A DNA stretch of 64,000 nucleotides, taken from assembly GCA_902779315.1 (NCBI GenBank), contig CACZBC010000006.1:50775-114774 (forward strand). The letters run 5' to 3'. The position numbers and the translations under genes were made by a program. Below the pieces are notes generated by a model, which saw only the letters and a list, made by a program, of their open reading frames with translations, made no database searches and was not told the DNA's origin. The first letter of the stretch is position 1. Each line of letters starts with the position of its first letter. This document shows positions 2,485-54,416 of the stretch, in pieces. The DNA is from an uncultured Bacteroidales bacterium. GTDB taxonomy: Bacteria > Bacteroidota > Bacteroidia > Bacteroidales > Bacteroidaceae.

Positions 2485-2604
2485 AATCGAAAACGTATAG
2501 TGTTATGATTGCAAACGTATAGTGTTATGTTTGCGATTTACTAGTGTGACGTTTGCGTTTTACTAGTGTGAAGTTTGCAATCGTCACACGCCTCGTTGGA
2601 AACT
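2485..2604. repeat. 22-bp tandem array A
   Basis: Five abutting 22-bp units start at 2485, 2507, 2529, 2551 and 2573, followed by a partial unit. Units carry GATTGCAAAC or GTTTGCGATT plus cores TATAGTGT, CTAGTGTG (twice) and, in the last unit, the opposite-sense CACACGCC. Same family as arrays B to H. It lies between divergent genes, so it precedes the 5' ends of both. Confidence 0.85.
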
Positions 2605-2697
2605 CCATAAAGCCCCTTTATCTCACAAAGAATGTGATTTGCCACTTTTTTCGCTACTTTTCTCTCAAAACTTGTGCTTTTTTTCACTTCTTTTTAG

Positions 2698-2705
2698 TAA
2701 CTTTG
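2698..2705 (+). promoter_or_regulatory. Bacteroidota -7 box for the polyferredoxin operon
   Basis: TAACTTTG matches TAnnTTTG, 35 bp before the ATG at 2741. A TTG at 2672-2674 is a weak -33 candidate with a slightly long spacing of 23 bp. Confidence 0.55.
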
Positions 2706-2740
2706 TCCCACAAGTTCGCATAAAATAATCAATTCTGAGT

Positions 2741-4273
2741 ATGCTTAAGAAAATCCGTTTGACACTCGCCATCATCTTCTGGGTGCTGATTACGTGGCTC
2801 TTGCTGGACTTTACAGGAGTGGCACAAGCCTACCTTGGATGGATGGCTAAGATTCAGTTCATTCCCGCTTTGCTGGCATTGAACATCGGAGCTCTGCTCT
2901 TCGTCGTCACACTCACCCTTTTGATGGGGCGAATCTACTGCTCCATCATCTGTCCTTTGGGTGTGATGCAGGACTTCATTGCCTGGCTGCGACGCAAAAA
3001 GAACAAGTACAACTTCTCGCCCGCAAAGAACACACTTCGCCTCTCTGTGCTTGTAATTGCCTGTGCTTCACTGGCTTTGGGCGTTGCCTGGGTGGGTGGA
3101 CTCATCTTCCCTTACAGCACTTACGGACGAATCGTCTCAACCGTCTTCGCTCCCCTCTACAAGCTCGCGAACAACGGTCTGGCGGCAATTTCAGAGCATT
3201 TCGGAAGTTATGCCTTCTACGAGGTTGAGGTCTGGTTCAAGAGCATCGCGGCATTCGTGGTCGCTCTGCTCACCTTGGGCGTTATCGCAGTATTGGCTTG
3301 GAAGAACGGACGCACTTGGTGCAACACGATTTGCCCAGTCGGAACTCTGCTCGGCCTCATCAGCAAGCAGTCTTTCCTCAAGATAAATATCGACGCGGAA
3401 AAGTGCAAGAACTGCCGCAAATGCGAGCGGAACTGCAAAGCTGCCTGCATAGACCTCGACACGCACACAGTCGACCATTCCCGTTGTGTTGTCTGCGGTA
3501 ACTGCCTGGAAGAGTGCAAGTTCGACGCTTTGAAGTTCACATCCAGTTCTTCACCGCTTGCCTCCGACTCACAAAAGACGGATGAAGGCCGTCGAGCCGT
3601 TCTGACAGGCGTCGCTCTCCTTGCTGGAACAGCCCTCGCAAAGGCACAAAGCAAGGTCGAACCAAAGACGACGGATGGCGGTCTGGCTGACATCATCAAG
3701 AAGAAGAAACCGCGTAGAAAGAAACTCATCACACCTCCAGGTTCGCTCTCGATACGCAATCTTCGCAGTCATTGCACGGCTTGCCAACTCTGCATAGACG
3801 CCTGTCCGAACGATGTACTGCGTCCCAGCAGCAGTCTCGACCGCTTTATGCAACCCGAAGTAAGCTTCGAAAAGGGCTATTGTCGGCCTGAATGCAATCG
3901 CTGCTCGCAGGTTTGTCCGACCTCTGCAATACAGCCCGTCACCGTAGAGCAAAGGACTGCCATCCAAGTCGGGCACGCAGTCTGGACTCGCGAACTCTGC
4001 ATACCCGTCAAGGACGAAAAGCCTTGCGGACTTTGTGCACGTAAATGTCCAGCCCAAGCCATACAGATGGTGCCCCTCCAAGCTGGCGTTCATCAGGACG
4101 GATGGCGTTGGAAAGATGCTGACGGACAAGAAATCCCAAGGGAAAAAGTCCTGCTCATTCCCGTCGTCAACGAAGAGAAGTGCATCGGTTGTGGTGCTTG
4201 CGAAAACCTCTGTCCCTCAAATCCTCTCAGTGCAATCTATGTTGAAGGACACGAGGTACATAAAGAAATATAA
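2741..4273 (+). CDS. NapH/NapG-like membrane polyferredoxin fusion
   Basis: 510 residues. The N-terminal half has about five membrane segments (8-30, 42-62, 100-125, 168-188) with two conserved CxxxCP motifs at 67-71 and 194-198, as in NapH/NosR-type quinol-linked Fe-S proteins. Two 4Fe-4S motifs follow at about 222-236 and 249-259. At 284-303 a twin-arginine-like stretch (RRAVLTGVALLAGTALA) is followed by four more cysteine clusters at about 345-355, 381-392, 429-436 and 481-491, resembling NapG. It therefore looks like a NapH-NapG fusion. Probable role: passing electrons from the quinone pool across the membrane. The next gene, 14 bp on, is an exported Fe-S oxidoreductase and a plausible partner. 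No nitrate reductase is nearby, so a nitrate role is not implied. Confidence 0.85.
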   Translation: MLKKIRLTLAIIFWVLITWLLLDFTGVAQAYLGWMAKIQFIPALLALNIGALLFVVTLTLLMGRIYCSIICPLGVMQDFIAWLRRKKNKYNFSPAKNTLRLSVLVIACASLALGVAWVGGLIFPYSTYGRIVSTVFAPLYKLANNGLAAISEHFGSYAFYEVEVWFKSIAAFVVALLTLGVIAVLAWKNGRTWCNTICPVGTLLGLISKQSFLKINIDAEKCKNCRKCERNCKAACIDLDTHTVDHSRCVVCGNCLEECKFDALKFTSSSSPLASDSQKTDEGRRAVLTGVALLAGTALAKAQSKVEPKTTDGGLADIIKKKKPRRKKLITPPGSLSIRNLRSHCTACQLCIDACPNDVLRPSSSLDRFMQPEVSFEKGYCRPECNRCSQVCPTSAIQPVTVEQRTAIQVGHAVWTRELCIPVKDEKPCGLCARKCPAQAIQMVPLQAGVHQDGWRWKDADGQEIPREKVLLIPVVNEEKCIGCGACENLCPSNPLSAIYVEGHEVHKEI

Positions 4274-4287
4274 AAGGAGATTAGGTT

Positions 4288-5676
4288 ATGAAAGATATTA
4301 CAAGACGAGATTTCCTCAAAGTTTCAGGCACAGCTGCCGCCACAACGGCTTTGGCATCGTGTGGTGTAAAAGGCGATAATGCCGATGGCGAAGTGGATTA
4401 CATGGGACATCACGAAGGTCCAATCCCCACCGACAAGATGACCTATCGCACCAATCCCAAGCAAGGGGACAAAGTCAGCCTGCTTGGCTATGGTTGGATG
4501 CGCTTGCCCAATACAAAAGATGAAGACGGTCGAGACGTCATCGACCAGGAACAAGTGAACCGCCTCTGCAAGTTCGCCCTCGATCATGGCGTGAACTACT
4601 TCGACACATCACCAGCCTACTGTCGAGGCAAAAGCGAAGAAAGTCTCGGCATCGCCCTTGAAGAAAGCGGATACAAACGCAGCGACTACTTCATCGCGAC
4701 CAAACTCTCGAACTTCTCACCCTCGCAATACGACTTCGAAGAAGGCAAGGCAATGTTCGAACGAAGCCTTGAAAACCTTCGGACTGACTACATAGATTAC
4801 CTCCTACTGCACAGTATCGGTGGTGGAGGAATGCAGCCCGTTCATGAACGTTTCCTCGATAACGGCCTTCTCGACTGGCTCGTGGAACAGCGCGAAGCAG
4901 GTCGTATTCGCAATCTCGGCTTCTCCTTCCACGGCGATGTCGCAGTCTTCGACTGGGCTATGGCTCATCACGAAGAATATCATTGGGACTTTGTTCAGAT
5001 ACAGGCAAACTATGTCGATTGGGAGAACGAAGACAAAGGCCGCTCAGGCAAATACCTGTATGAAGAACTCTCAAAGCGGAACATTCCCGTCGTCATAATG
5101 GAACCCTTGCTTGGTGGCCGTCTGTCTAAAGTGCCAGACCACGTTGTGGCACACTTCAAACAACGCAAACCAGAGGATAGTGTCGCGTCTTGGGCCTTCC
5201 GCTACATAGGTTCAAAGCCCGCAGTACTTACCGTACTGAGCGGCATGACCTATATGGAGCACTTGGAAGACAACCTTCGAACATACTCCCCACTTGAGCC
5301 TCTCACCGAAGAGGAACAGGAATGGCTCGAAGAAGAAACGGCGACACTCATCAAGAGCTATCCCACAATTGATTGCAACGACTGCAGCTACTGCATGCCT
5401 TGCCCGTATGGTCTCGACATTCCAGGCATCTTCGTACATTATAATAAATGTGTCAACAAGGGCAACGTTCCTGAAAGCCAGCAGGCAAAGAACTACCAAA
5501 AAGCCAGAAGAGCCTTCTTAATAGGTTATGATCGCAGCGTACCCAAGCTCCGTCAGGCAAACCATTGTGTCGAATGTCGCGAATGCGTGCCGCATTGTCC
5601 CCAGCAGATTGACATTCCACGCGAAATGCAACGAATCGATTCCTTTGTTGAAAAACTCAAACAAGGAACGTTATAA
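4288..5676 (+). CDS. Tat-exported aldo/keto reductase with C-terminal 4Fe-4S domain
   Basis: 462 residues. The start TRRDFLKVSG is a twin-arginine signal and LASC (Cys25) is a lipobox-like site, suggesting a Tat-exported, lipid-anchored protein. An aldo/keto reductase barrel follows, with tetrad candidates Asp106 and Tyr111 (YFDTSPAYCRGKSEESLG), Lys139 (IATKLSN) and His175 (DYLLLHS). The last quarter carries two ferredoxin-like motifs: CNDCSYCMPCPYGLDIP and CVECRECVPHCPQQIDIP. The substrate is unknown. It is transcribed with the upstream polyferredoxin (14-bp gap), which could supply electrons. Confidence 0.88.
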   Translation: MKDITRRDFLKVSGTAAATTALASCGVKGDNADGEVDYMGHHEGPIPTDKMTYRTNPKQGDKVSLLGYGWMRLPNTKDEDGRDVIDQEQVNRLCKFALDHGVNYFDTSPAYCRGKSEESLGIALEESGYKRSDYFIATKLSNFSPSQYDFEEGKAMFERSLENLRTDYIDYLLLHSIGGGGMQPVHERFLDNGLLDWLVEQREAGRIRNLGFSFHGDVAVFDWAMAHHEEYHWDFVQIQANYVDWENEDKGRSGKYLYEELSKRNIPVVIMEPLLGGRLSKVPDHVVAHFKQRKPEDSVASWAFRYIGSKPAVLTVLSGMTYMEHLEDNLRTYSPLEPLTEEEQEWLEEETATLIKSYPTIDCNDCSYCMPCPYGLDIPGIFVHYNKCVNKGNVPESQQAKNYQKARRAFLIGYDRSVPKLRQANHCVECRECVPHCPQQIDIPREMQRIDSFVEKLKQGTL

Positions 5677-5716
5677 AAGCAAGGGCGCCTTCATACGGAA
5701 GACGCCCTTTGCTTTT
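5675..5716. terminator. Bidirectional terminator between convergent genes
   Basis: Arms AAAAGCAAGGGCG and CGCCCTTTGCTTTT form a 13-bp stem with one bulge and a 15-nt loop. A-rich and T-rich flanks give a U-tract in both directions. It overlaps the stop codon of the reductase gene and abuts the GH92 stop at 5717. Confidence 0.85.
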
Positions 5717-7957
5717 CTATTTCTTTTCGCTCATTGTAAAGTCGAGCGTTCCACCTTGAATGAGTTGCTGATGCGTCAGTTTCCAATCGGTTATCTTCTT
5801 GCCGTTGAGTTTCACACCCTTCACGTAGATGGCCTTGTCCGACTTTCGAGGAGCATTGATAACCAACTCCTCCTTTCCGTTTGGCATATGCAGGGTTGCA
5901 TGTTGGAACAAAGGCGTACCTATTACATACTCTGCAGCTCCTGCATTGAACGGATAGAAGCCAAGAGATGAGAAGATGTACCAAGCTGACATCTGTCCAC
6001 AGTCGTCATTACCTGCATAACCACAAGGCGTAGCATTATAGAACGTGCTGCGAACCTGCTCCACAAGTTCTTGTGTACGCCAAGGCTGACCTGCAAAGTT
6101 GTAGAGATAAACTGTGTGATGACTTGGTTCATTACCGTGTGCGTACTGTCCAATAAAGCCACTCGCATTACCATTCACTTCTCCGCTTGTCTCCGTCAAA
6201 GTGAAGTTCTCGTTGAGCTTCTTGATAAAAGGCTTCACACCACCAAAGAGATCGATAAGTCCTTGAGGGTTTTGCGGAACGAACCACATGTATTGCCAAG
6301 CATTACCCTCAACGAAGCATGGATTCTCGTAACTGAGGGGGTCGAAAGGCTCAATCCAGTTGCCTTTATCGTCTTTAGGTTGGAAGAAACCCGTAGCAGG
6401 GTTGAAGAGGTTGCGATAGTATTCGCTGCGTTTGATGAAACGTTCGTAGTCGGCAGTCTTTCCAAGTTTCTTCGCAACTGCAGCCACGCACCAATCGTCG
6501 AAAGCCTGTTCCATCGTGATGGACACGCTGACGTTCTGCTTATTCTGAGGCATGTAGCCATACTCTTCCCAAACCTCGAAAGGACTGTTGGGATGAGTGC
6601 GAGTGCTGCTCTCGACCATAGCTTTGTAGGCTCTCTCGACGTCAAGTCCAGGCAGTTCCGACATGATGGCATCGGCCACAACGGGTATGGCGTGATTGCC
6701 TATCATACAATAATTGTCCTGTCCCCAAAGGTCCCAAATGGGCAAGTAACCGTAGGTTTCGTGATGAAGAACCATGTCTCGAACAAATTGTACTGCAATA
6801 TTGGGATATAGTAGGGTGTAGAGAGGATGGGCTGCACGGAAGGTATCCCAAAGGCTGAAGGTGCTGTGATAGCTCTGACCTGCAGGCATTTGCTTGATTT
6901 CGAAGTTGGTATCCATGTATCTTCCATCTACATCACTGATGGTGTTGGGCTGCATGAGGACATGATAGAGGCCTGTATAGAAGATAGTCTTCTGGTCGTC
7001 TGTGCCCTCGATGTCGATAGTGGAGAGTTCCTTTTCCCAAGCATCATGAGCGGCTTTGGTGTAGTAGTTGAAGTCCCAAGACTGCGCTTCTGCCTTCATA
7101 TTCTTGCGAGCTCCATCATTATCAACTGCCGAGATGGCGACCTTTGCCAACACATCTTTCTTATTATTAGGGAAACAGAGGGCAGCCCTCAATGTGCGAC
7201 CGTTTATGACATCACTTTTGCCAGCACTACGTCCGCCATCCATCAGGATGCGACTCTCAAAGGGGCGCGAGAACTCGATGCGGAAATAAACCTTTCTCAA
7301 CTTTGCCCAACCAGTCAGAACACGGAAGCCTTCGATAGTCTTGTCATCGAGGATGCGTATCTGACTCTGGATAATCTGATAAGCGCGACGTCCTGTATAA
7401 TAGGCATCACCACGGAAAGTCATACGGTCGAGGTCGAGAACGACGGTCTGTTCTTTGCCTTCTGGAAACAGGTACTTGTGGATGCCTACATGAGTTGTTG
7501 CGGAAAGTTCGACGTTTATGTTCTCGCCGCCAAGCAAGTCGACCATATAGTAACCCGGAGCCGCCTTTTCCTGTTCATGCTTGAAAGGCAGAGCGAAGAT
7601 GCCTTTGCGCAGCAATTCGGGCGTGACACGCTTTACAGTCGGCATCAAGGAGATGTCGATGAGGTCTGTGCAACCTGTTCCGCTTAGGTGAGTATGCGTG
7701 AAACCGAAGATGGAGTCTCTGTTGTAATCGTAGCCGCAACAAGGGTCCCAAGTGACGTACTGCTCAGTTTCTGGAGCAAGTTGCACCATTCCCTGAGGCA
7801 TCGTGGGACCCGGGAACGTACTTCCACTGAGGGCTCCCGTATCGTCAGTCTGAGTACCGATGAAAGGGTTGACATACTTCGTATAGTCTGTCGCCATAAC
7901 TGCCAAAGAGACACAAGCTGCCAGACAAGTAAATGCTATTCGTTTGGAGAGGAACAT
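5717..7957 (-). CDS. GH92 family alpha-mannosidase
   Basis: 746 residues with signal peptide (residues 1-22, ending VMATD). GH92 enzymes are calcium-dependent exo-alpha-mannosidases acting on host or fungal mannans and N-glycans. Hallmarks: YVNPFIGT at the N-terminus, TFPGPTMPQGMVQLAPET, GFTHTHLSGTGC, the catalytic region YAHGNEPSHH with its acid Glu, and GNDDCGQMSAWYIFSSLG with the base Asp. Length is normal for the family. It is a single gene between two convergent or divergent neighbours, with no SusC/SusD pair in the window. Linkage specificity cannot be told. A weak -7 box (GAACTTTG, minus, 7983-7990) is 25 bp upstream. Confidence 0.95.
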   Translation of the reverse strand: MFLSKRIAFTCLAACVSLAVMATDYTKYVNPFIGTQTDDTGALSGSTFPGPTMPQGMVQLAPETEQYVTWDPCCGYDYNRDSIFGFTHTHLSGTGCTDLIDISLMPTVKRVTPELLRKGIFALPFKHEQEKAAPGYYMVDLLGGENINVELSATTHVGIHKYLFPEGKEQTVVLDLDRMTFRGDAYYTGRRAYQIIQSQIRILDDKTIEGFRVLTGWAKLRKVYFRIEFSRPFESRILMDGGRSAGKSDVINGRTLRAALCFPNNKKDVLAKVAISAVDNDGARKNMKAEAQSWDFNYYTKAAHDAWEKELSTIDIEGTDDQKTIFYTGLYHVLMQPNTISDVDGRYMDTNFEIKQMPAGQSYHSTFSLWDTFRAAHPLYTLLYPNIAVQFVRDMVLHHETYGYLPIWDLWGQDNYCMIGNHAIPVVADAIMSELPGLDVERAYKAMVESSTRTHPNSPFEVWEEYGYMPQNKQNVSVSITMEQAFDDWCVAAVAKKLGKTADYERFIKRSEYYRNLFNPATGFFQPKDDKGNWIEPFDPLSYENPCFVEGNAWQYMWFVPQNPQGLIDLFGGVKPFIKKLNENFTLTETSGEVNGNASGFIGQYAHGNEPSHHTVYLYNFAGQPWRTQELVEQVRSTFYNATPCGYAGNDDCGQMSAWYIFSSLGFYPFNAGAAEYVIGTPLFQHATLHMPNGKEELVINAPRKSDKAIYVKGVKLNGKKITDWKLTHQQLIQGGTLDFTMSEKK

Positions 7958-8000
7958 AATTAAAACATGTTAATGGTTTGTGCAAAGTTCGGCATTTCTT

Positions 8001-8030
8001 TTGTCATTCACAAAAAAAAGCCTACTTTTG
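8001..8030 (+). promoter_or_regulatory. Promoter of the small exported protein gene
   Basis: TTG at 8001-8003 and TACTTTTG at 8023-8030, separated by 19 bp, fit the Bacteroidota -33/-7 pattern. The -7 box ends 23 bp before the chosen ATG at 8054, which argues against any start further upstream. Confidence 0.65.
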
Positions 8031-8053
8031 TACCGAAAAAGACAAGGAAACGC

Positions 8054-8464
8054 ATGAAACGTCTTCTAATAATGCTACTCTTCGCGCTGACTTTTGGGAC
8101 AGTTTCAGCCCAAACACAAGACAGTGCGCGTGTAGACACCCTGCGCGAAGTGGAGGTGCGAGGTGACTCCGTACTTCGTGTGAACGAAGCGATACGACGG
8201 TCTATAGGAAAAGAACAGGCAACACGTATCGGCACAATGTCCGTAAGCGATGTGCTCGGCCATCGCATAACGGATAAAATCATGCATCCCTTGGCAATCA
8301 AGGATCGCAAACGCGAGAAGAAACATGCTCGCGACCGTAAGATTCTAGAGGAATACGAGCAGTTGAACCGCGTCAAGACCTTTGAGGAGCTCCTCGACGA
8401 AGCCATTCGAAAGCAAGCCATCGAAGACGGGAAAGAACCACCCACGCGCTCAGGAAAGAAATAA
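8054..8464 (+). CDS. Small exported protein of unknown function
   Basis: 136 residues from the ATG at 8054, chosen because MKRLLIMLLFALTFG...SAQ is a clear signal peptide and the promoter at 8001-8030 lies just before it. A longer frame opens at 7967 but would include the promoter. The mature part is highly charged: DTLREVEVRGDSVLRVNEAI near the start, then an Arg/Lys-rich helix (KDRKREKKHARDRKILEEY) and FEELLDEAIRKQ. No enzyme motif is visible. It resembles short conserved Bacteroidales periplasmic proteins with a TonB-plug-like VEVRGD word, but no function can be assigned. The deaminase gene starts 35 bp downstream. Confidence 0.65.
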   Translation: MKRLLIMLLFALTFGTVSAQTQDSARVDTLREVEVRGDSVLRVNEAIRRSIGKEQATRIGTMSVSDVLGHRITDKIMHPLAIKDRKREKKHARDRKILEEYEQLNRVKTFEELLDEAIRKQAIEDGKEPPTRSGKK

Positions 8465-8499
8465 AGGAACCACGTTTTCGTCCTATACATTATATATAT

Positions 8500-8973
8500 A
8501 TGAAGAAACAAGACAAGCGCTTCATGCAATTGGCCATAGATCTGAGCATAGAAAATGTGGCAAATGGCGGCGGACCTTTCGGAGCAGTCATCGTCAAAGA
8601 CGGGGAAGTGGTTGCGACTGGTGTAAATCGAGTTACAGCAAATAACGATCCTACAGCTCATGCCGAAGTGTCTGCCATTCGAGCTGCCTGCCAGAAAGAG
8701 GGCACATTCAAGCTCGAAGGATGCACTATCTACACCTCTTGCGAACCTTGTCCCATGTGTTTGAGCGCCATTTACTGGGCCGGACTCAGCCGAATCTACT
8801 ATGGTTGCAACAAACAAGACGCAGAAGAAATCCATTTCGGCGACAAGTTCATCTACGAAGAAATAGAACGCCCCGTCTCCAAACGCGCCATTCCTACAGA
8901 GAATATCATGCGCGAAGAAGCCCTGCAGGCCTTCCGAGATTGGGAAGATAAAACAGACAAAGTGGAATACTAA
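8500..8973 (+). CDS. guaD: Nucleoside deaminase, probable guanine deaminase
   Basis: 157 residues, cytidine-deaminase fold. Zinc ligands and proton donor are His54-Ala-Glu56 in NDPTAHAEVSAIRAAC, and Cys84/Cys87 in TSCEPCPMCLSAIYWA. GGGPFGAVIVKDG, NDPTAHAE, a C-terminal FIYEEI and the final Val-Glu-Tyr resemble the Bacillus GuaD type more than TadA, which favours guanine to xanthine deamination in purine salvage. A tRNA adenosine deaminase role is the main alternative. It is cytoplasmic, with no signal peptide. Confidence 0.85.
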   Translation: MKKQDKRFMQLAIDLSIENVANGGGPFGAVIVKDGEVVATGVNRVTANNDPTAHAEVSAIRAACQKEGTFKLEGCTIYTSCEPCPMCLSAIYWAGLSRIYYGCNKQDAEEIHFGDKFIYEEIERPVSKRAIPTENIMREEALQAFRDWEDKTDKVEY

Positions 8974-9003
8974 AACAGCAACAAGAAAAACAACTGCAGC
9001 CTC

Positions 9004-9146
9004 GTTGGCAATCGCATAGTGTTACGATGGCGATCGTATAGTGCGACGATGGGGATTGTCTAGTGTGACGTTGGCGAATATCACGTGTGACGTTGGCAAA
9101 CTTCAAACGTGAAAATCGAGAACATCACGTGCCACGTTTTCAAACC
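9004..9146. repeat. 22-bp tandem array B
   Basis: Six abutting units start at 9004, 9026, 9048, 9070, 9092 and 9114, with a partial seventh. The cores drift along the array: ATAGTGTT, ATAGTGCG, CTAGTGTG, CACGTGTG, CAAACGTG, CACGTGCC. The TTGGC/TTGC position stays in register at 22 bp although almost every base elsewhere changes. The array ends 21 bp before the ATG of the CPBP protease gene. Confidence 0.88.
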
Positions 9147-9167
9147 ACACATATCTAGTCTCAACTT

Positions 9168-10043
9168 ATGACCTGGCATAAACTCTCTCCCACCATCCTG
9201 ACCCTGCTCATCTTCCTGCTGGCACAAGGACTTGGCACAATCCTGCTCTTCGGCGTTTTCATGTTGACTTCGCCAAAGTTCAGTTCCGCCGTTCAAGCAT
9301 ATATGAGTGGCGAAGTGCAAAGTCTGCCTTTGCTCGAGATGATGCCAGCCTCCACCTTCTCCCTCATCTTGATGGTTGTAGACATCCTTGCAGTAATGGG
9401 TTGCTACTTCCTGCTCCACAACATCCGTCTCCTCAAATCCGACGATTTCTCCTCCATCAAGTGGCGGCCAGGCATACTTGCCATCGTCGGAGGCGTTTTA
9501 GGAGCCATCAGCATCTCCATCCTAACGGAAAAGGTCCCTCTCCCAGACACAATGCTGCAAATGTCGCAAGAAATGTCGCACAACATCATTGGATTGCTCA
9601 CACTCGTCGTCGTGGGACCCATCACAGAAGAACTGCTCTTTCGCGAAGCCATCGAAGGCGAAATGCTTCGCAGAGGCACAAACCCTTGGCTCGCAATCAT
9701 CATCTCGGCCATCGCTTTTGGCGTAGCACACCTCAATTTCGCGCAAGGACTCTATGCATTCCCGCTTGCAATCCTTTTCGGAATTATTTACTACAAGACG
9801 GGAAATATTGTTCTTACCTCTCTGCTCCATATCCTCAACAACGGTATCGCAGCCTTCCAACTCAACATACTAGGCGAGGACATTGCCGACCTAACCTATG
9901 CAGATTGGTTCGGGAACCAAGCCTCAGCATACATCGTAATGCTTCTTTTCGGATTGCTCAGCATCCTGTTTATGATGAAATTTTGGGCAAAACATCCTAC
10001 CAACGAACAAACTTGCAGCAAAACAGGCATTATGAACGAATAA
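9168..10043 (+). CDS. CPBP family intramembrane metalloprotease
   Basis: 291 residues, about eight membrane segments. The CPBP (Abi/Rce1-like) motifs are present in order: EELLFREAIEG (the EExxxR motif), FGVAHLNF with the first metal-binding His, and LLHILNNG with the second. Rce1 homologues cleave prenylated proteins; bacterial members are tied to bacteriocin immunity or membrane-protein processing, but substrates are generally unknown. It is monocistronic: array B lies upstream and a strong promoter for the next gene follows. Confidence 0.88.
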   Translation: MTWHKLSPTILTLLIFLLAQGLGTILLFGVFMLTSPKFSSAVQAYMSGEVQSLPLLEMMPASTFSLILMVVDILAVMGCYFLLHNIRLLKSDDFSSIKWRPGILAIVGGVLGAISISILTEKVPLPDTMLQMSQEMSHNIIGLLTLVVVGPITEELLFREAIEGEMLRRGTNPWLAIIISAIAFGVAHLNFAQGLYAFPLAILFGIIYYKTGNIVLTSLLHILNNGIAAFQLNILGEDIADLTYADWFGNQASAYIVMLLFGLLSILFMMKFWAKHPTNEQTCSKTGIMNE

Positions 10044-10116
10044 ACGCATCGTTTTGTGTTAATTTTTTTAAAGTTTAGCATATTTTACGTTAAAATATAT
10101 TAAACGCCCATTATTC

Positions 10117-10150
10117 TTTGCTCATATTCCTAAACGAAGTCGTACCTTTG
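10117..10150 (+). promoter_or_regulatory. Promoter of the coiled-coil lipoprotein operon
   Basis: TTTG at 10117-10120 and TACCTTTG at 10143-10150, 22 bp apart. The leader to the ATG at 10237 is about 80 nt and A/T-rich. Confidence 0.65.
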
Positions 10151-10236
10151 TGCGGAGTATCATCTACAAAAGGGGCATATTATGCACAAATGTAAAACCA
10201 TATAACTCTATTTTAATACTTTTAACATTTTAACAA

Positions 10237-13200
10237 ATGAAAAAGAAACTCATTCAATTACTCATGCTGCTGGTTGCAGCAGTAAGTGTAGGAGCGTTCG
10301 TGTCTTGTAAAGATACAAACGAGGATTATTACAACGAGTTGCGCACACAGTACATCAAGGACAATGCTACTCTGCAGGAAGCCTTTGATGCACAAGTTGC
10401 GAAGCTGGAAGAGCAGATTGCCACTTACAAGGCTGCTCTTGACTCTCTCGAGGAAGCATTTGCAGGCTTCAACTCTTGCGAATGTGATTCAAATGCCCTG
10501 AAGGCTGTCATCAAGGGCCTGACCGATCAGATTGAGAGCATCAACAAACAGATTGAGATTCTCACTAACGGTCTTGCTAACGCTGCCACCAAGGAAGAAT
10601 TGGGTGCTGTTAATCACACCATCGATCTCCTCACCCAGCAGGTTAACACCATTGACGGCGCTCTGAAGACTCTCATTGCTGCGTTCAATCCTCTGGCTTC
10701 TGATGTTGCTGCCGCTAAGGCTGCTCAGGAAATCATGCAGGGTGTCATCACCAACTTGCAAGAAGAACTTCGCAAGATAAGGGAAGACCTCGCAAACAAT
10801 AGCCAGTGCAACTGCGACTACAACTATGTAACCAGCAAGTTGGCAGAACTTGAGGCAAGAATGACTGGCGCTGAGGCACAGGCAAAGCAGGCTTTACAAT
10901 TTGCAACAGACGCAAAGACTACTGCTGATGCTGCGAAACTGGCCGCAGAAAGTGCTCAGAATGCTGCTGACAATGCAAAGGAAATTGCTAAAAACGCTCA
11001 GGATTTGGCTAATCAAACTATCTTAACGGCAAATGAAGCCAACCGCCTTGCTAATGAAGCAAAGACTGCTGCTGAAACTGCAAAACAGACAGCATCTGAC
11101 GCAAAAGACCTCGCTAAAGCAGCCGACGCCCTCGCAAACGCTACTTTCCAGAAGGTTGCTGAGTTTGAGGTTCAACTTACTACAATCAACGGAAAGGCCG
11201 AGCAAGCTCTCACCCAGGCAAACGATGCATTTGCATTGGCTGAAGCCAATCACAAGCTCATCGACAACCTGACTCAAACTGTCACAAGCATGAAGTCTGA
11301 ATACGATGAGAAGTTCAGCCAAATCGATGAAGCTCTGAATAACCTCAAGGGCCTTAGTGATAAGGTAAATGATAACACAGGAAGAATCAAAGCACTTGAG
11401 GATGCTCTCAAAGAATTGAAAGAGACCACTCTTGCCAATTTGACAGAGAAGGTTGACGAAATGGATAAGAAGCTCGACGGCATGAGCGAGAGACTCGCAA
11501 CATTAGAGAATCAATGTGCCACATTCCTTGACGAGGCACGTCTCATTGCTCAGGCAGAAGTAGCTACAGCTAAGGCTGACATCCTCAATTATGTGATGGA
11601 GAATTATGTCAATAAAGAGGATCTCGAGAATTACGCTACTAAGGAGCAGCTGAAGGACTCTATTGGCGCCCTCGTTGCGAGAATGCTCACAGAGCTCGAT
11701 AGTGATCGTCAAAGAATCCGCGCAAACGAAGTTGACATCGAATGGCTCAAGCGCTTATGGAGTGAAGCAACATACAAAGAAATCTTCGAACGCATCACTG
11801 CATTGGAAGGTGCTACCGAGAATATTAAGAATGAAGTCCTTCAAATTATTAATGAGACTCTTACCGAAAAGATTACTGAGATCATTAAGGAACTCTTAAA
11901 AGAGGGTGGTGATATCAATGTAGAGATTACTAAAATCATTAACAATATTCTTGAAAACGGTGATTTCATTACCGAGGATAAGGTAATGCCTATCGTCAAC
12001 GGAGTCATTAAAGAGGTTGGTGACGAGAACATTCAGGATTTGGTACAACTTGTTGTAGTCGTTTCATCTCTGAATACTACAGTTGATTCTCTTTGTAATG
12101 TTACTAATACCACCAACACTACGATTACAACAATCCAAAATAGTATTACAACTATTGAAGGCGACATTGATAACATCAATACCAACATCACAAACCTGTC
12201 AACAAGCATAAAAAATGTTAACACAAGAGTTGACTCTGTTGTAAATGTTATTAATAACATCAAGGGAGATGTCATCGCCATTCAGAATGCTCTTGCAAAG
12301 CAAGTGACAGGTATCATCGTTCAGGGCACATACAACCCCTGGTTCGGTTCCTTCAACCTGCCTGCAGACGTTCAGTCTAACGTCCTCGTTGCATTCTATG
12401 GTGTTCCCTTCAACGATGTTGAATTCCCAACAGATGACGACCAGAACTATGTCCGCAAGAATGAGGTTCTCACCGCAAAGGACATGGAAATGATCAATGG
12501 TGTGGAAATCTTTGAAGCTCCCGCTAATGTGCCTCTCTTGAATGAGGATGGCAACGCTGGTAAGGTTTACATGACCATCAATCCTAATACTGCAAACCTT
12601 GAAGGCCTGAAGTTGAGCATCGTCAACACTCTTGACGAAGAATCTCCTATCAAGCTCAACCCCATCACAAAGAGCAATGACAAACTGCAGTTTGGTTATA
12701 CCCGTGCTGACAATGGCTTCTATGAAGCAACAACTTATGTCACACCTAGAACAGTCATGAAAGAAGACAATGGTATTCCTCTCAAAAGAGAAGATATCAC
12801 TGCATTGTATGGTGAAGTTCAGAGCAAGATCATGGAAATTGCTAACAACTTTGAGAAACCTGACAGACAAGGTAGCTTGCATAAACTTTTAACCGATATT
12901 TATCAGGTAATACGCGGCATCAAAGCTGACAGATATGGTTTGAAGTGCACATACACTACCGCAGACAAAGAAGGAGCAGAGACAGAACACTCTGTATATT
13001 CTCAGTACAATATGGCAGCAACATTCTTCAAGCCTCTCAATCTGGCTTGGGGTAAGGACATCACTTGGGATAAGATGCCTGGATACGATTTCTTTGATGG
13101 TCTGCTCGATGATATTGCAACCTCTCTGAAGGCGAACATTGATGTGGCAAGTGCTACTGGCATTATTAAGGGAATGACTGATCAGCTTAAGATTGAAGAG

Positions 13201-14301
13201 CTCAGATTCATTGGCCTTACCGAGGACTTTGTTGCAAAAGTTGAAGCCAGAGTATCAAGTGTCACACTGAATGGCGTTGGTTATGTCATAGAAGCACCTG
13301 GTACAGGTAACTTCGAAATCAAGTTCGACAAGAATTTGACAGCAGGTGGTAACGCAGTTACAGTTCCTGAGGCTGTGGCATTTGACGATGAAAACATCAC
13401 TGCAAAGAGAGCAACACTGGTTGTCTTCGGCGACATCCTGAATGGTTTGAAACTGAGGATGCTTGTACCTGCTAGAGGAGCAGACGATAAAGTTGAAGCA
13501 TATGCAACACTTGTCTTTAGTGACAGTTACGCAACTGCAGAACTCATTGACGGTGTAATTACACTCAATATCGTTGGAGGCGAAAGCTATGCTCTTGCAG
13601 CATACGCTGGAGGCAACCTCTCTATCACATCAGATTGTGCTGATTTCGTCATTCTTAAAGACTGCGTAGGTCGCGAAGGTTCTATTAACCTCCCAGTTGT
13701 GGTTGAATTCACTGATGACGTTCGCGAACTGCTGAACGAACAGAAAAACATTCTTAATGAAGTCTTTGATGAACTGAATATCCAATTGGATCAGATTAAC
13801 AACTATGGCGGATCAGCTTGGGTTGATGGTTTCATTGATGAATATCTTAGGAAGTATCTGGATTTGATTAATGAGGACTATTGCAGATTCTTCAATTCTA
13901 TAAACCGTCGCTTCGGTCCTTTCATTGTTGCAAGTAACAGCGGCAAGGGCTTTAAGCGTCTGAGTTTCTATAGAAAATATCCTACCAAGATGAAGAAAGA
14001 AAATCTGGCAATCTACCCAACCACAAAGAACATGGAACTCATCGTACCTATTGCAAGGAAGCACGTTGCAGTGACAAATGTCTTCAAGGGTAAGGCAAAT
14101 GCTCAGGCTGGTGATGCAGATTGCAAGGCCAAGTTGCAGGCAGCCAACACAGGCAAACTCAACACTGTTGTTGACGGAACCGTACGTAAGATTGATGTTA
14201 CTGGCATGGAACCTGGCTATGTTTACGAGGTTGCTTACTCTATTCTTGACTTCGATGGCAACATCTCGACCGTCAAGTCTTACATCACGATTGAAGAATA
14301 A
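10237..14301 (+). CDS. Long coiled-coil surface lipoprotein (PL29 N-terminal-domain-like)
   Basis: 1354 residues. The lipoprotein signal ends in AFVSC with Cys at about 24, followed by KDTNEDYYNELRTQYI. Residues about 35-720 are predicted coiled coil: Ala/Lys/Glu heptads (AAKLAAESAQNAADNAKEIA) at 200-300, then Thr/Asn/Ile-rich heptads (NTTNTTITTIQNSITTIEG) at 620-690. From about 700 the sequence becomes beta-rich and globular (VTGIIVQGTYNPWFGSFNLP) to the end, finishing with an Ig-like strand pattern. The N-terminus resembles Bacteroidales proteins labelled PL29 lyase N-terminal domain, but no lyase catalytic region is recognisable. Likely an elongated fibre or stalk on the outer membrane. 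The OmpA-family gene follows after 39 bp. Confidence 0.8.
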   Translation: MKKKLIQLLMLLVAAVSVGAFVSCKDTNEDYYNELRTQYIKDNATLQEAFDAQVAKLEEQIATYKAALDSLEEAFAGFNSCECDSNALKAVIKGLTDQIESINKQIEILTNGLANAATKEELGAVNHTIDLLTQQVNTIDGALKTLIAAFNPLASDVAAAKAAQEIMQGVITNLQEELRKIREDLANNSQCNCDYNYVTSKLAELEARMTGAEAQAKQALQFATDAKTTADAAKLAAESAQNAADNAKEIAKNAQDLANQTILTANEANRLANEAKTAAETAKQTASDAKDLAKAADALANATFQKVAEFEVQLTTINGKAEQALTQANDAFALAEANHKLIDNLTQTVTSMKSEYDEKFSQIDEALNNLKGLSDKVNDNTGRIKALEDALKELKETTLANLTEKVDEMDKKLDGMSERLATLENQCATFLDEARLIAQAEVATAKADILNYVMENYVNKEDLENYATKEQLKDSIGALVARMLTELDSDRQRIRANEVDIEWLKRLWSEATYKEIFERITALEGATENIKNEVLQIINETLTEKITEIIKELLKEGGDINVEITKIINNILENGDFITEDKVMPIVNGVIKEVGDENIQDLVQLVVVVSSLNTTVDSLCNVTNTTNTTITTIQNSITTIEGDIDNINTNITNLSTSIKNVNTRVDSVVNVINNIKGDVIAIQNALAKQVTGIIVQGTYNPWFGSFNLPADVQSNVLVAFYGVPFNDVEFPTDDDQNYVRKNEVLTAKDMEMINGVEIFEAPANVPLLNEDGNAGKVYMTINPNTANLEGLKLSIVNTLDEESPIKLNPITKSNDKLQFGYTRADNGFYEATTYVTPRTVMKEDNGIPLKREDITALYGEVQSKIMEIANNFEKPDRQGSLHKLLTDIYQVIRGIKADRYGLKCTYTTADKEGAETEHSVYSQYNMAATFFKPLNLAWGKDITWDKMPGYDFFDGLLDDIATSLKANIDVASATGIIKGMTDQLKIEELRFIGLTEDFVAKVEARVSSVTLNGVGYVIEAPGTGNFEIKFDKNLTAGGNAVTVPEAVAFDDENITAKRATLVVFGDILNGLKLRMLVPARGADDKVEAYATLVFSDSYATAELIDGVITLNIVGGESYALAAYAGGNLSITSDCADFVILKDCVGREGSINLPVVVEFTDDVRELLNEQKNILNEVFDELNIQLDQINNYGGSAWVDGFIDEYLRKYLDLINEDYCRFFNSINRRFGPFIVASNSGKGFKRLSFYRKYPTKMKKENLAIYPTTKNMELIVPIARKHVAVTNVFKGKANAQAGDADCKAKLQAANTGKLNTVVDGTVRKIDVTGMEPGYVYEVAYSILDFDGNISTVKSYITIEE

Positions 14302-14340
14302 AACAAACCCGCTTTTTGAACAAAAAAAGGAATCAAAGTT

Positions 14341-15489: not shown

Positions 15490-15516
15490 TTATTGACATA
15501 CTTCTATTAACAACTT

Positions 15517-15552
15517 CCCCCCGCCATTCTGCATATGTAGTGTGACGGGGGG
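15517..15552. terminator. Weak GC-rich hairpin after the OmpA-family gene
   Basis: CCCCCCG at 15517-15523 pairs with CGGGGGG at 15546-15552 across a 22-nt loop. No T-run follows, so it may only partly reduce read-through into the next gene at 15567. Confidence 0.35.
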
Positions 15553-15566
15553 ATGAATTATCATTT

Positions 15567-40343: not shown

Positions 40344-40431
40344 AAAATCAAACGTCAAACGTGATGTTTGCAAACGTCAAACGTTAAGTTGAGCAACTTA
40401 ACACGCCAAAATTGCAATTTTCAAAGGTTTC
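40344..40431. repeat. 22-bp tandem array F
   Basis: Four units start at 40344, 40366, 40388 and 40410. Cores: CAAACGTG, CAAACGTT, TAACACGC and a degenerate one. GTTTGCAAAC at 40366 is the exact 10-bp dyad. Confidence 0.8.
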
Positions 40432-48639: not shown

Positions 48640-48718
48640 GTTGCCAAACTAGGCATGGCTAATTGTAAAACTAAACTAGGCGCGTCGTTCTACACGGCAC
48701 GCCTAGTTTTCGAATGAC
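48640..48718. repeat. 22-bp tandem array G (degenerate)
   Basis: Three units start at 48640, 48662 and 48684. TTGCCAAAC and ATTGTAAAAC keep the register, but cores have drifted to AGGCATGG, AACTAGGC and GGCACGCC. It lies between convergent GH2 and pyrH and includes the hairpin at 48673-48709. Confidence 0.65.
48673..48709. terminator. Hairpin within array G, probable shared terminator
   Basis: AAACTAGGCG (48673-48682) and CGCCTAGTTT (48700-48709) are perfect 10-bp arms with a 17-nt loop. T-rich on the plus side (GTTTTCG) and A-rich on the other, it could end both convergent genes. Confidence 0.6.
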
Positions 48719-51540: not shown

Positions 51541-51567
51541 TAATCCGAAAACACGAAGAATAAAACC

Positions 51568-54255
51568 ATGAAACGTCTCTTTCTTTCTCTTTTTGCATTA
51601 TACGTTATGTTGCCCGTTTTGGCTGGCTACAGAAACAATTGTATCACGCTTGATTCGCGGCTTCAGCATGGTGGCAAGCAGACTTGGCACATGGTTCGAG
51701 CAGGGGAAACTCAGGCAACAGGCAGGGAGATTTCCATGCCTGGTTTCAACACGCAAGGTTGGGCAGAAGCCATCGTGCCTGCGACCGTCCTGACGAACCT
51801 CGTCGAACAGAAGGTCTATCCAGAGCCCTACTTTGGACAGAACAACAAGCTTGCAAACAATCTTATCCCAGACTTGGCAAAGGTGGAACGCGAGTTCTAT
51901 ACATATTGGTTCCGCACAGAGTTCGTAGTGCCTGCAGAGTTCAAAGGCAAAAGAATATGGCTCGAACCGATGGGCATCAACTATCGGGCTGAGATTTGGG
52001 TAAATGGATACATGATAGGTCAGATGGCTGGCATGTTCAACAACCAGCCGTTCGACATTACAGACCGAGCTGTCCAGCCTGGTCAGACTGCAGCCATTGC
52101 CATTCGTGTCCTGCCTGTTGATGTGTCTGGAACTACTTCGCCAAAAGGTTGGGGAGCAGTCGGAGAATGGCACAACGGCGGAGACGGATGGATAGGACAG
52201 AATGTAACCCAACTCATGACTGTAGGTTGGGACTTCACTTTCGAGGATGGCATTCGCGACAGGAACACTGGAATTTGGCGTTCGATACGCCTCTATGCGA
52301 CTGGTCCACAGCAACTTCGCAACCCATACGTAACCTCGGAACTCGCCCACCCCAATTATGATGTCGCGAGCGAAACGGTTAGTGTGGAAGTTTGGAATCC
52401 CAACACAAACAGCGGAGAATGTGTCGTGAGCGGAAGCATCGAGGGAACTGACATTTCTTTCAAGAGCAAGAATATCAAGTTGCAAAGGGGGGAGCATAAG
52501 ACAGTCACTTTCTCACCAAAAGATTTCCCACAACTCGTCATCAGAAGGCCCAAGCTTTGGTGGCCGAAGAACAAGGGCGAGCAGAACCTCTACACGCTTC
52601 GTCTTACTCTTGTAGACGGGAAAGGAAATCTCATGGACAGCCTTTCAACCCGATTCGGAATCAGGGAAGTTATCGCCACTCGCGAGACTCCAGACAAATC
52701 GAAACTTTTCATCATAAACGGGCACAAGACCTTCGTTCGAGGAAGCAACTGGATCCCTGAAGCCATGCTACGTACCAACGATAAACGAATGGAGACGGAA
52801 CTCGCCTATACAGACCAGTCTGGCATCAACTTGTTGCGTCTTTGGGGAGGCGGAATTGCTGAGAGTGACCGCTTCTACGAGCTTTGTGATGAGTACGGAA
52901 TCATGGTTTGGCAGGAGTTCTGGATGACTGGCGACACGAAGCATCCTATGGATGAGCCGCTCTATCTGGCAAATGTGGAGAGTACGATGAAACGCATCCG
53001 CAATCATCCCAGCATAGTCATTTATGTCTCGAGCAACGAGAGTACGGCTGTGACTGGAGCAGAAGAACTCATCAAGAGCCTGGCTCCAGACATCCCCTAT
53101 CAGATGCAAAGTGAATGCGACGGCGTTCATGATGGCAGCCCCTACAAGCAAGTCAATCCGATGCGACACTACGAAAACACGGCTTCGGACAGAGGAAGTC
53201 GCGTAGATGGCTTCAATCCTGAGTATGGAGCCCCAACCTTGCCTATCGTCGAGGACTTGTACGAGATGATGCCTGCCAACGAGCTTTGGCCCATGAATAA
53301 AGCAACCTGGGACTACTTGGACGGCAACGGATTCCACCTTATGAGCACGCTCTACAAGGATATGGTCAACGAGTATGGCCAGTCGAAGAGCATCGAGGAG
53401 TTTGCTCGCCGCGGACAAATGGTGGGAGCCATCAATTCGAAGAGCATTTGGGAAGTCTGGAACGAGCACAAACTGCAGTATGGAGACCGTTGGTGCTCAG
53501 GTCTTCTGTTCTGGTATCACAACTGCGCGAACTGGCAAGTCTGCTCTCGAATGTGGGACTGGTTCCTCGAACCGACTGCTTCCCTCTATCACACCATGCA
53601 CGCCCTCGAGCCTGTTCATATCCAATACGACTATCTGACGGGTACTGTAAGTGTGAGCAACGACTATCTCGAAGCGCAAAAGGGACTCAAGGCGAAGGCC
53701 GAAGTCTATGATTCACAGAGCCGTAAGGTCAATTCCGTTACTGCAAAAGTGGATGTTCCTGCAGATGGGGTTGCCAACGATGTGCTTTCTGTCGCCATTC
53801 CTGACGATATAACTCCAGTCCATTTCATCGCTCTCGAACTGACTGACGCGAAGGGAAAAGTCGTGAGTCGCAACCTGTATTGGCGCTCGAACAACAAGTA
53901 TGAGGGCAAGAGCACCTTGACTGGACCTTGCACAAGCGGGTTCGAGGCCCTCGCAAACCTGCCTGAAGCGAGACCCACAGTTATGACTCGCCGCCTTTCC
54001 GAAAAGGATGGGCAATATGAATGGGAAGTGACATTGAGGAACAGCAGTCGGAAGATTGCCTTCTTCTGCCAACTTCTCCTGACTGACCTGAACGACAAAC
54101 CCATTCACGGAACCTATTACAGCGACAACTTCTTCACGATGTTGCCAGGAGAGAAACAAGTCATCACCATTCGGACAGACAAGCAAAACGGAGGGAATTT
54201 CCGCCTTCGCTTCTGCGAGAATATGGGTGAGAAGAGAAACGCAACAATAAGATGA
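51568..54255 (+). CDS. GH2 enzyme, beta-mannosidase/exo-beta-glucosaminidase type
   Basis: 895 residues with signal peptide (ends PVLAG). The N-terminal part (PGFNTQGWAEAIVPATVLTN, FWTYWFRTEF-like strand at about 115) is typical of the mannosidase/glucosaminidase branch. Acid/base Glu lies in IVIYVSSNESTAV and the nucleophile Glu in GFNPEYGAPTLP; NLLRLWGGGIAESDRFYELC is also conserved. Two C-terminal beta domains complete it. Substrate cannot be fixed; the GH105 partner suggests a uronate-containing plant glycan. It is the last gene of the operon, with array H 20 bp downstream. Confidence 0.9.
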   Translation: MKRLFLSLFALYVMLPVLAGYRNNCITLDSRLQHGGKQTWHMVRAGETQATGREISMPGFNTQGWAEAIVPATVLTNLVEQKVYPEPYFGQNNKLANNLIPDLAKVEREFYTYWFRTEFVVPAEFKGKRIWLEPMGINYRAEIWVNGYMIGQMAGMFNNQPFDITDRAVQPGQTAAIAIRVLPVDVSGTTSPKGWGAVGEWHNGGDGWIGQNVTQLMTVGWDFTFEDGIRDRNTGIWRSIRLYATGPQQLRNPYVTSELAHPNYDVASETVSVEVWNPNTNSGECVVSGSIEGTDISFKSKNIKLQRGEHKTVTFSPKDFPQLVIRRPKLWWPKNKGEQNLYTLRLTLVDGKGNLMDSLSTRFGIREVIATRETPDKSKLFIINGHKTFVRGSNWIPEAMLRTNDKRMETELAYTDQSGINLLRLWGGGIAESDRFYELCDEYGIMVWQEFWMTGDTKHPMDEPLYLANVESTMKRIRNHPSIVIYVSSNESTAVTGAEELIKSLAPDIPYQMQSECDGVHDGSPYKQVNPMRHYENTASDRGSRVDGFNPEYGAPTLPIVEDLYEMMPANELWPMNKATWDYLDGNGFHLMSTLYKDMVNEYGQSKSIEEFARRGQMVGAINSKSIWEVWNEHKLQYGDRWCSGLLFWYHNCANWQVCSRMWDWFLEPTASLYHTMHALEPVHIQYDYLTGTVSVSNDYLEAQKGLKAKAEVYDSQSRKVNSVTAKVDVPADGVANDVLSVAIPDDITPVHFIALELTDAKGKVVSRNLYWRSNNKYEGKSTLTGPCTSGFEALANLPEARPTVMTRRLSEKDGQYEWEVTLRNSSRKIAFFCQLLLTDLNDKPIHGTYYSDNFFTMLPGEKQVITIRTDKQNGGNFRLRFCENMGEKRNATIR

Positions 54256-54274
54256 AAATGACATAACCAGCGAA

Positions 54275-54416
54275 GAGACAAAACAACTAGTGCGACGTTT
54301 GCAATTTACTAGTGTGACGTTGGCAATTTACTAGTGTGACGTTGGCAATTTACTAGTGTGACGTTGGCAATTTACTAGTGTGACGATTGAATCGTCACAC
54401 TAGTCGCTGGGAAACA
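54275..54416. repeat. 22-bp tandem array H (best conserved)
   Basis: Six units start at 54275, 54297, 54319, 54341, 54363 and 54385. The three from 54319 to 54384 are identical (GTTGGCAATT then TACTAGTGTGAC), and the one before differs by a single base. The last unit is inverted, giving a perfect 14-bp inverted repeat at 54374-54404 (ACTAGTGTGACGAT/ATCGTCACACTAGT, 3-nt loop). It ends 18 bp before the ATG at 54435. Confidence 0.93.

Follow-up and report, generated by a model that had tools for sequence, protein, structure and literature searches.

Intergenic arrays on a 22-bp lattice keep their places while their words are rewritten in a Bacteroidales family, with HU-HIG proteins as candidate readers

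Arrays in the window

The window analyzed here, a 64-kb stretch of the genome of an uncultured Bacteroidales bacterium (the source genome, G000, estimated to be 84% complete), carries the following intergenic arrays and associated HU gene:

2467-2598, no strand: array 1, 6 units of 22 bp; divergent gap 2319-2740; profile score 93.3
9008-9161, no strand: array 2, 7 units; tandem gap 8974-9167; profile score 109.3
17967-18076, no strand: array 3, 5 units; convergent gap 17925-18191, adjoining the HU gene; profile score 98.7
18192-18455, minus strand: classical HU gene (called length 87 aa), adjoining array 3; PF00216, E 2.4e-32
23892-24045, no strand: array 4, 7 units; tandem gap; profile score 122.1
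30727-30836, no strand: array 5, 5 units; convergent gap; profile score 99.2
40348-40435, no strand: array 6, 4 units; tandem gap; profile score 62.5
48640-48718, no strand: array 7, degenerate and weak; convergent gap; lag-22 identity 0.44
54279-54388, no strand: array 8, 5 units and then one in inverted orientation; tandem gap; profile score 92.2

A first-pass annotation of this DNA had claimed eight 22-bp arrays; seven of them have a clear period, and the stretch at 48640-48718 is weak. Among lags 10-33, lag 22 gave the best identity in all eight claimed arrays: 0.68 (2485-2604), 0.66 (9004-9146), 0.57 (17941-18082), 0.67 (23888-24041), 0.65 (30723-30854), 0.53 (40344-40431), 0.44 (48640-48718) and 0.74 (54275-54416). 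A 22-bp profile recovered 7/8, missing the degenerate array 7, and Tandem Repeats Finder reported period 22 at six of the eight places (at two of these also period 44), with no period-22 row at 40344 or 48640. The window's 20 gaps of at least 60 bp (4225 bp), with boundaries resting on a simple gene caller of our own, contain seven lag-22 segments scoring at least 12, whereas shuffling each gap 200 times gave 0.035 on average and never more than 1, so that the claimed periodicity does rise above shuffled intergenic sequence. Within the window we found no Rfam match at gathering scores and no tRNA.

Unit structure and genomic placement

Confinement to the window, which would have counted against the first-pass claim, is not what the genome shows: a single word, allowing at most 3 mismatches, matches 647 times in the genome and its reversed control twice. 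Array density in the source genome is approximately one per 9 kb (443 kb examined); in the list of 49 profile arrays, one appears as two entries (C4 38257 and 38302), and 3/50 arrays are not centered in a called gap. All three gap types are occupied, as first described, with an uneven distribution that favors convergent gaps: among gaps of at least 100 bp, arrays are present in 12/18 convergent, 30/76 tandem and 4/26 divergent ones. In the 30 tandem gaps the array lies at a median of 21.5 bp past the upstream stop and 169.5 bp ahead of the next start.

The unit had been described as a shared TTGCAA dyad plus an exchangeable core, a description that fits the source genome and does not generalize: relatives retain the 22-bp period but use different words, without the fixed TTGCAA register, and several dialects coexist within one genome (four genomes compared). 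A better description of the unit is a pair of inverted 9-bp halves with a central dinucleotide, plus a GC linker. In the source genome the center is AC or GT in 130/134 internal units, and adjacent units keep their polarity in 127 cases and switch it in 23. A recombination site with an asymmetric center was considered and rejected, as this rule fails elsewhere, where TA and other centers are seen by eye. Center polarity in the 30 tandem gaps is independent of gene sense (13 AC, 16 GT, 1 tie), as expected for a reader of double-stranded DNA.

Conservation of period and place

Across four genomes we detected 47, 18, 25 and 25 intergenic lag-22 segments (115 in total), compared with 3, 3, 1 and 1 for lags 17, 19, 20, 23, 25, 26 and 28 pooled, each of these seven lags contributing 0-4 segments; score thresholds vary from 12 to 15 between lag counts, some of which spanned more than intergenic DNA. 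With lag 22 prominent even between genomes that have no words in common, these counts uphold the earlier suggestion of selection on spacing rather than on letters. In 20 genomes from 20 other families of the order, lag 22 is at background.

The places are also kept. Our mapping of the three gaps in window positions 1-20000 revealed a 22-bp array, in genome-specific words, in 27/28 homologous instances (gap 3 was compared in the relatives other than G256 and G263, and for three relatives only the downstream gene establishes the homology of gap 2). The gap of array 1 has a homologous gap with a lag-22 segment in 9/10 relatives, two of them weak (score 14); an array precedes the homologue of the gene at 9168 in 10/10 relatives, the gene upstream of this gap being apparently missing from G258, G260 and G264; and an array adjoins the HU homologue in all eight relatives examined at gap 3.

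Comparison of orthologous gaps between species gave the same picture. Counting gaps with an array in neither genome, in the second only, in the first only and in both, we obtained 10/0/0/3 (G000-G262), 10/0/0/4 (G262-G264), 9/0/0/2 (G000-G260 and, likewise, G260-G262), 12/3/1/4 (G000-G264) and 15/2/2/5 (G260-G264), with Fisher P from 0.031 to 0.001 over six species pairs that share genomes and are thus not independent, gap pairs both below 60 bp being skipped. Aligned array sequence differs at 131/787 positions and flanks at 411/3403 in a pooled count that one locus enters twice; without it the figures are 120/655 and 382/2915, one of 8 pairs being skipped. Array period and place are often conserved from one species to the next while the sequence is rewritten, a combination that points to a DNA-binding protein changing along with the arrays.

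HU-HIG proteins as candidate readers

The HU-HIG family, described in Pfam as 'HU domain fused to wHTH, Ig, or Glycine-rich motif' (PF18291), is present in 11/11 genomes searched, and in several relatives an HU-HIG gene lies beside the classical HU homologue of array 3. Of 13 HU-HIG-wHTH loci, 12 have a frame (L300 has none; G263b, which is counted, has a frame of 190 aa). These 12 genes come from nine genomes, and all 12 are preceded by a 22-bp array of 3-4 units, each a palindrome or close to one. The distance between array end and start is 79-87 bp for ten genes and 38-39 bp for two, whose start call is 48 bp longer. For G258, G265, G259, G263 and G264 the promoter words resemble those used at other places in the genome, and for G256, G257 and G261 they are a variant seldom seen outside the promoter. 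Nine genomes have both the TTGC-GCAA dialect and HU-HIG-wHTH, and among 11 genomes the TTGC-GCAA pair is missing from G262 alone, which also lacks HU-HIG-wHTH; the 84% complete source genome has 8 forward TTGC-GCAA matches, yet no HU-HIG-wHTH was found there.

Other HU-HIG genes are enriched for promoter-proximal arrays to a degree that varies with the cut-off. Defining as promoter-proximal an array beyond a cut-off distance from any stop, 4/5 of them have such an array at 100 bp, compared to 19/636 other genes (Fisher P 6e-6), and 2/5 compared to 18/636 at 120 bp (P 0.009). Of the four HU-HIG genes counted at 100 bp, two are orthologues at a single place whose arrays lie 102 and 111 bp from the HU stop, between the two cut-offs, and both P values are optimistic, the HU-HIG copies being mutually related. 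In a wider set of HU-HIG genes without wHTH, 20/27 have an upstream segment (six weak, with score 12-15, and four one-place orthologues). All three complete HU-HIG genes of the source genome have an upstream array, but so do 23/95 genes there whose upstream gap is at least 150 bp.

Possession of an HU fold is not enough to account for the lattice, since PF00216 occurs in 58/60 genomes of the order and G284, with 17 PF00216 matches, has no 22-bp array in its 20-kb sample. HU proteins are, besides, known for low sequence specificity, which speaks against the HU-HIG reading. HU-HIG is the best candidate family for a reader of the arrays, with a binding predicted from these sequence associations.

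Discussion

The first-pass annotation had seen in the arrays a protein lined up on DNA, which is still their most natural predicted reading, and the evidence favors a putative chromosome-organizing or multivalent protein site. Our tentative proposal, which we hold at somewhat less than even confidence, is that the arrays are multivalent double-stranded DNA sites for HU-HIG paralogues that block between transcription units, with words rewritten together with their reader. On a fixed 22-bp lattice of such sites, mostly at transcription-unit ends, dimeric DNA-binding proteins would dock side by side, one per two helical turns. The most likely readers would be the HU-HIG paralogues, HU-like nucleoid proteins of which some have a C-terminal winged helix, each recognizing its own palindromic word. 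Through the promoter array a reader may control its own gene, and by coating same-word arrays chromosome-wide it may form protein blocks between neighboring transcription units, putatively serving to insulate these units, to terminate transcription by roadblock or to fold the nucleoid. Divergence or replacement of a reader would lead to a genome-wide rewriting of its words, with places and period staying as they were.

Phased sites of about 22 bp are known from plasmid iterons, and nucleoid-bound proteins such as Noc and SlmA have dispersed palindromic sites. The arrays share the phasing of the former and the dispersed palindromes of the latter; unlike these families and that of ParB, each of which has a single conserved word, they combine numerous words with a common lattice and lie at the ends of many genes.

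It is a serious possibility, though one we would not presently assert, that the lattice is read by another dimeric DNA-binding family, repressor-like or nucleoid-occlusion-like, which regulates HU-HIG genes through their promoter arrays. Palindromes in many dialects would fit any dimeric reader, and the words span a wider range than one would expect an HU-type arm to recognize. Against this stand the nearly fixed distance of the array in 12/12 HU-HIG-wHTH promoters and the fact that, by eye, no gene family but HU-HIG was noticed among the 23 genes with promoter-proximal arrays, apart from the orthologue of the gene after gap 1, which recurs in three genomes.

An action of the arrays as RNA, with transcribed inverted units forming 3′-end hairpins as terminators or protection of mRNA ends, appears improbable. 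Placement at gene 3′ ends agrees with it, as do one G264 site ending with inverted units and a T-run and folding z of -3.6 or below on the plus strand for 4/7 arrays (54275, 2485, 17941 and 23894), but the other three fold at chance on that strand (9004, z -1.1; 30723, -0.1; 40344, -1.1), array 9004 reaching z -2.8 on the minus strand. The halves of the commonest source-genome unit (54/231) are not complementary, the 127 direct versus 23 switched neighbors disfavor hairpins, and the arrays have no sense-strand bias; taken together with the mixed folding scores, this led us to reject RNA hairpins as the design rule. Substitution for intrinsic terminators was likewise rejected: terminator-like hairpins occur at 19/56 array ends and 19/78 other ends in the source genome, their frequency did not differ significantly in any of four genomes, and a replaced-terminator role is unsupported, given that gaps with arrays show no depletion of intrinsic terminators.

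That the arrays are dispersed repeats of a selfish or neutral kind (REP/REPIN, MITE or minisatellite), tolerating a location at 3′ ends, is in our assessment very unlikely. In favor of this reading, one set of three units recurs almost unchanged at six places within a 158-kb part of G264, and indels of exactly 22 bp, their position within the stretch unrecorded, appear in 5/6 aligned comparisons at five loci. Many dispersed palindromic intergenic repeats are indeed a REP/REPIN trait, and the BIME/REP repeats of Escherichia coli and REPIN-RAYT systems comprise hundreds of them, with 3′-end and convergent bias and species-specific words. The arrays resemble these systems in all those respects and differ in their rigid 22-bp lattice and in words rewritten at kept places; the REP-associated Y1 transposase (PF01797) is absent from 10/11 genomes, G070 having one weak match (24.2 bits, cut-off 23). 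With the same gaps occupied across species, by unrelated words on one lattice, and RAYT-type transposases absent in 10/11 genomes, the non-autonomous mobile repeat put forward in the first reading is unsupported. Three dialect patterns match 0, 2 and 0 stretches in viral contigs, arguing against a phage origin. No MITE-type leader or tail common to the arrays was seen beside them by eye, and a CRISPR array was rejected, also by eye, as the units are contiguous and without spacers. The BrickBuilt minisatellite of Porphyromonas gingivalis is described as a 23-nt unit, AGAYCATARTATCCTCTCRTRTG, inside a MITE, with 18-19 copies in the genomes compared (PMC4596501). It shares short tandem units, intergenic location and a Bacteroidales host with the arrays, which are distinguished by inverted-half units of period 22 rather than 23, by unrelated words and by a frequency of about one array per 9 kb, and it was rejected as an identity for them.

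That the dialects mark a species' own DNA for natural transformation is hardly credible: Neisserial DNA uptake sequences do have species dialects and inverted copies at gene ends, like the species-specific words and the 3′-end and convergent placement seen here, but they are not known to have a fixed-period lattice, whereas the arrays are clustered on a 22-bp lattice about every 7-9 kb instead of being dispersed single words, multiple dialects occur in one genome, and we know of no role for such a rigid lattice in DNA uptake.

Conclusions

Our search of open-licence papers yielded no account of 22-bp arrays of this kind, nor any array or binding site for HU-HIG proteins, and, whatever the reader, kept place and period with rewritten letters are not accounted for by any of the repeat classes that we tested. 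We put forward, as a possibility still short of conviction, that the chromosome of this family is punctuated at transcription-unit ends by 22-bp lattices, on the order of hundreds per genome, whose sequence-specific HU-like readers co-evolve with them, each genome with its own dialects. If so, the arrays would be a bacterial analogue of fast-evolving satellite/reader pairs, and a bacterial model for the concerted evolution of repeat and reader. The function of the expanded HU-HIG family would become directly testable, and matched word-reader pairs would be available for studying the insulation of neighboring bacterial genes. An abundant gut and rumen family would then mark its transcription-unit boundaries with a programmable nucleoid-protein code, one for which we found no earlier description.

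Period, placement and unit design

Arrays in the window were assessed with Tandem Repeats Finder, by eye in 22-bp rows and by lag identity. The first-pass annotation had described eight intergenic arrays with a 22-bp period, and lag 22 ranks first among lags 10-33 in all eight; by lag identity seven are strong, while the array at 48640-48718 is weak. The period also exceeds chance on shuffling, with seven lag-22 segments (stretches self-matching at a 22-bp offset) in window gaps, whereas 200 shuffles averaged 0.035 and never exceeded 1. The family proved to extend beyond the window: when up to 3 mismatches are allowed, one 18-mer word (unit sequence) matches the genome at 311 forward and 336 reverse sites, compared with 0 forward and 2 reverse for its reversed control. 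Searching 443 kb of this genome with a 22-bp profile (contigs C1, C2, C4 and part of C6, window included) yielded 49 arrays at score >=18 and 55 at score 12; the two controls, one Markov and one reversed, had 0 each at the higher score and 6 and 2, respectively, at the lower. This corresponds to one array per ~9 kb in the 443 kb examined and, by extrapolation, to ~310 in the genome. Compared with random choice among gaps of at least 100 bp, inter-array distances are more even, both in the number below 3 kb (3/42 versus 9.7 expected, P 0.002) and in their coefficient of variation (P 0.02).

Arrays had been reported from convergent, tandem and divergent gaps, and all three types do carry them, but unevenly (12/18, 30/76 and 4/26 of gaps >=100 bp, respectively, from our own gene calls, which also underlie the distances below); 3 of 50 arrays are centred outside any called gap. 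In tandem gaps, 24 of 30 arrays lie closer to the upstream stop than to the next start, with medians of 21.5 bp after the stop and 169.5 bp before the start (Wilcoxon P 2.6e-4). Across four genomes, 77 of 110 intergenic arrays have a stop codon no more than 100 bp away; of the rest, 24 are promoter-proximal and 9 fit neither class. One divergent-gap array in the genome of the window (C1:59202-59461) lies upstream of a gene whose product appears NusG-like by eye.

Units in this genome have GC followed by two 9-bp halves, the second inverted, on either side of a central dinucleotide; the halves are drawn from a limited set (AAACGTCAC, GATTTACTA, AAACGTATA and others). AC or GT occupies the centre of 130/134 internal units, and departures are commoner in end units (first, 13/49; last, 15/48). 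Centre polarity is the same between adjacent units 127 times and switched 23 times, and no tie to gene sense was found in this genome.

Conserved places and rewritten words

Relatives were found via named loci and homologous stretches then compared; among the matches listed, they are mostly MAGs from rumen or gut, assigned to Bacteroidaceae, Prevotellaceae or Bacteroidales, plus a few unrelated bacteria. At the three gaps of window 1-20000 (2319-2740, 8974-9167 and 17925-18191), G256 and G257 have arrays in window-like words, and further relatives carry arrays of that period built from different words: CAACTTAACACGTTAACTTTGC in G262, a CCCCGCACGCGGCG-type word in G264 and G259, AACGCCCTATAGGGGAATGAGC in G263 and G265, and AATAATGGTTAACCTTTCCGGC in G260. 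By our own mapping, arrays occupy 27 of 28 homologous gap instances (9/10, 10/10 and 8/8), the sole exception being the first gap in G258; beyond these gaps, one more separate array was noticed, in G259 (L136 5782). Over longer stretches, six species pairs show agreement in array presence between orthologous gaps (Fisher P 0.031 to 0.001), with discordant gaps in two pairs numbering 4/20 and 4/24. The period is shared by four genomes with different words.

Intergenic lag counts by genome (G000, genome of the window)
Lags: 17/19/20/22/23/25/26/28
G000: 0/0/1/47/0/0/0/2
G262: 1/1/0/18/0/0/0/1
G264: 0/0/0/25/0/0/0/1
G260: 0/0/0/25/1/0/0/0

Between the genome of the window and two near relatives, 18% of aligned bases differ in the arrays, compared with 13% in the flanks, which include coding parts (six comparisons at five loci, duplicate removed). 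An exact 22-bp indel occurs in 5/6 of these comparisons, together with indels of other lengths. In a C1 stretch of G264 (local 110752-110870), two adjoining inverted units followed by a T-run form a terminator-like hairpin.

Twenty further family genomes (347 kb) gave 16 intergenic lag-22 segments, spread over 11 genomes; every other lag that is not a multiple of three gave 0-8, with the 8 at lag 14. In 20 genomes, each from a different other family of the order (380 kb in all), lag 22 gave 1 and other lags 0-2. Three of the family genomes, two of them of other genera, were sampled more largely over coding and intergenic DNA and had 12, 5 and 7 lag-22 segments, against at most 3, 1 and 6 at other lags that are not multiples of three, the 3 and 6 again at lag 14. 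In some family genomes the lattice may be missing or thinly spread, since 9 of the 20 showed no lag-22 segment in 12-20 kb each (one with a long N run). Lag 14 forms a second excess (6 segments in the G070 sample, 8 in the 20 family genomes). Other designs were also seen: 22-bp units, GGAGTTAACAGCCTTCGGCTGA among them, whose interior resembles a hairpin, at L153 12300-12527 (G137), an RNA-like design of the same period; family arrays resembling 11-bp rather than 22-bp units at L150 11888-11951 (G098) and L148 11223-11408 (G083); repeats of 22 bp resembling GCAACCGTCACTTGGAAGAAAT at several places in G247 and G234, of another genus; and a pair of CCGCACGCGG words spaced 22 bp on viral contigs L202 and L203.

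Candidate array-binding proteins

RAYT-type transposases were found in none of 10 of the 11 genomes searched. HU-HIG (the HU-like family PF18291) is present in all 11, at 5 to 17 matches per genome, a count that takes in classical HU. A lag-22 segment lies within ~300 bp upstream of 20/27 HU-HIG genes, six of these segments being weak and four belonging to orthologues at one place, versus 65/198 genes with an upstream gap of at least 150 bp. Promoter-proximal arrays precede 4/5 HU-HIG genes versus 19/636 others (P 6e-6). For two of the four, however, the distance from a stop is 102 and 111 bp, and raising the stop cut-off to 120 bp changes the figures to 2/5 versus 18/636 (P 0.009).

HU-HIG-wHTH proteins (~208 aa) form a subclass that ends in a C-terminal winged helix, with 14 matches in 9/11 genomes, one a short fragment. 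All 12 genes with a found frame have an upstream array of 3-4 units, palindromic or nearly so, ending 79-87 bp before the start, or 38-39 bp in two genes whose start call is 48 bp longer. Their promoter words vary among genomes and among paralogues. Those of G258, G265, G259, G263 and G264 recur in kind elsewhere in the genome among the matches listed, and those of G256, G257 and G261 are variants with few further copies among them. Forward matches to TTGC(N14)GCAA twice, overlapping pairs within one array being counted separately, number 156 in G258, 46 in G265, 24 in G263, 17 in G259, 16 in G257, 13 in G261, 12 in G256, 8 in G000, 4 in G260, 1 in G264 and 0 in G262; the reversed pattern, as control, matches nothing in any of the 11 genomes. 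In G260 the matches listed fall at only two places, one being the HU-HIG-wHTH promoter. An HU-HIG gene was found within the 3 kb examined at only 2 of 14 pattern loci inspected, and therefore most arrays of this dialect (word type) lie elsewhere.

A classical HU gene (window 18192-18455) adjoins the array in the gap at 17925-18191. An HU-HIG gene adjoins the classical HU homologue in several relatives; the window and G262 have short gaps there, with no such gene. G264 loci L214-L217 hold several near-identical HU-HIG genes with differing upstream sequence, and elsewhere a number of HU-HIG matches sit, repeat-like, at contig starts.

Discussion

A fixed period, conserved places, rewritten letters and no strand bias together point to a double-stranded DNA reader, a protein binding the arrays and co-evolving with their words. 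On the promoter evidence HU-HIG is the best candidate for this role; that another dimeric factor reads the arrays instead is nearly as likely. Full-text searches of the open-licence literature brought up no description of such arrays. Coated by their reader, arrays at gene ends could act as insulation or a roadblock between transcription units, or might contribute to nucleoid folding.
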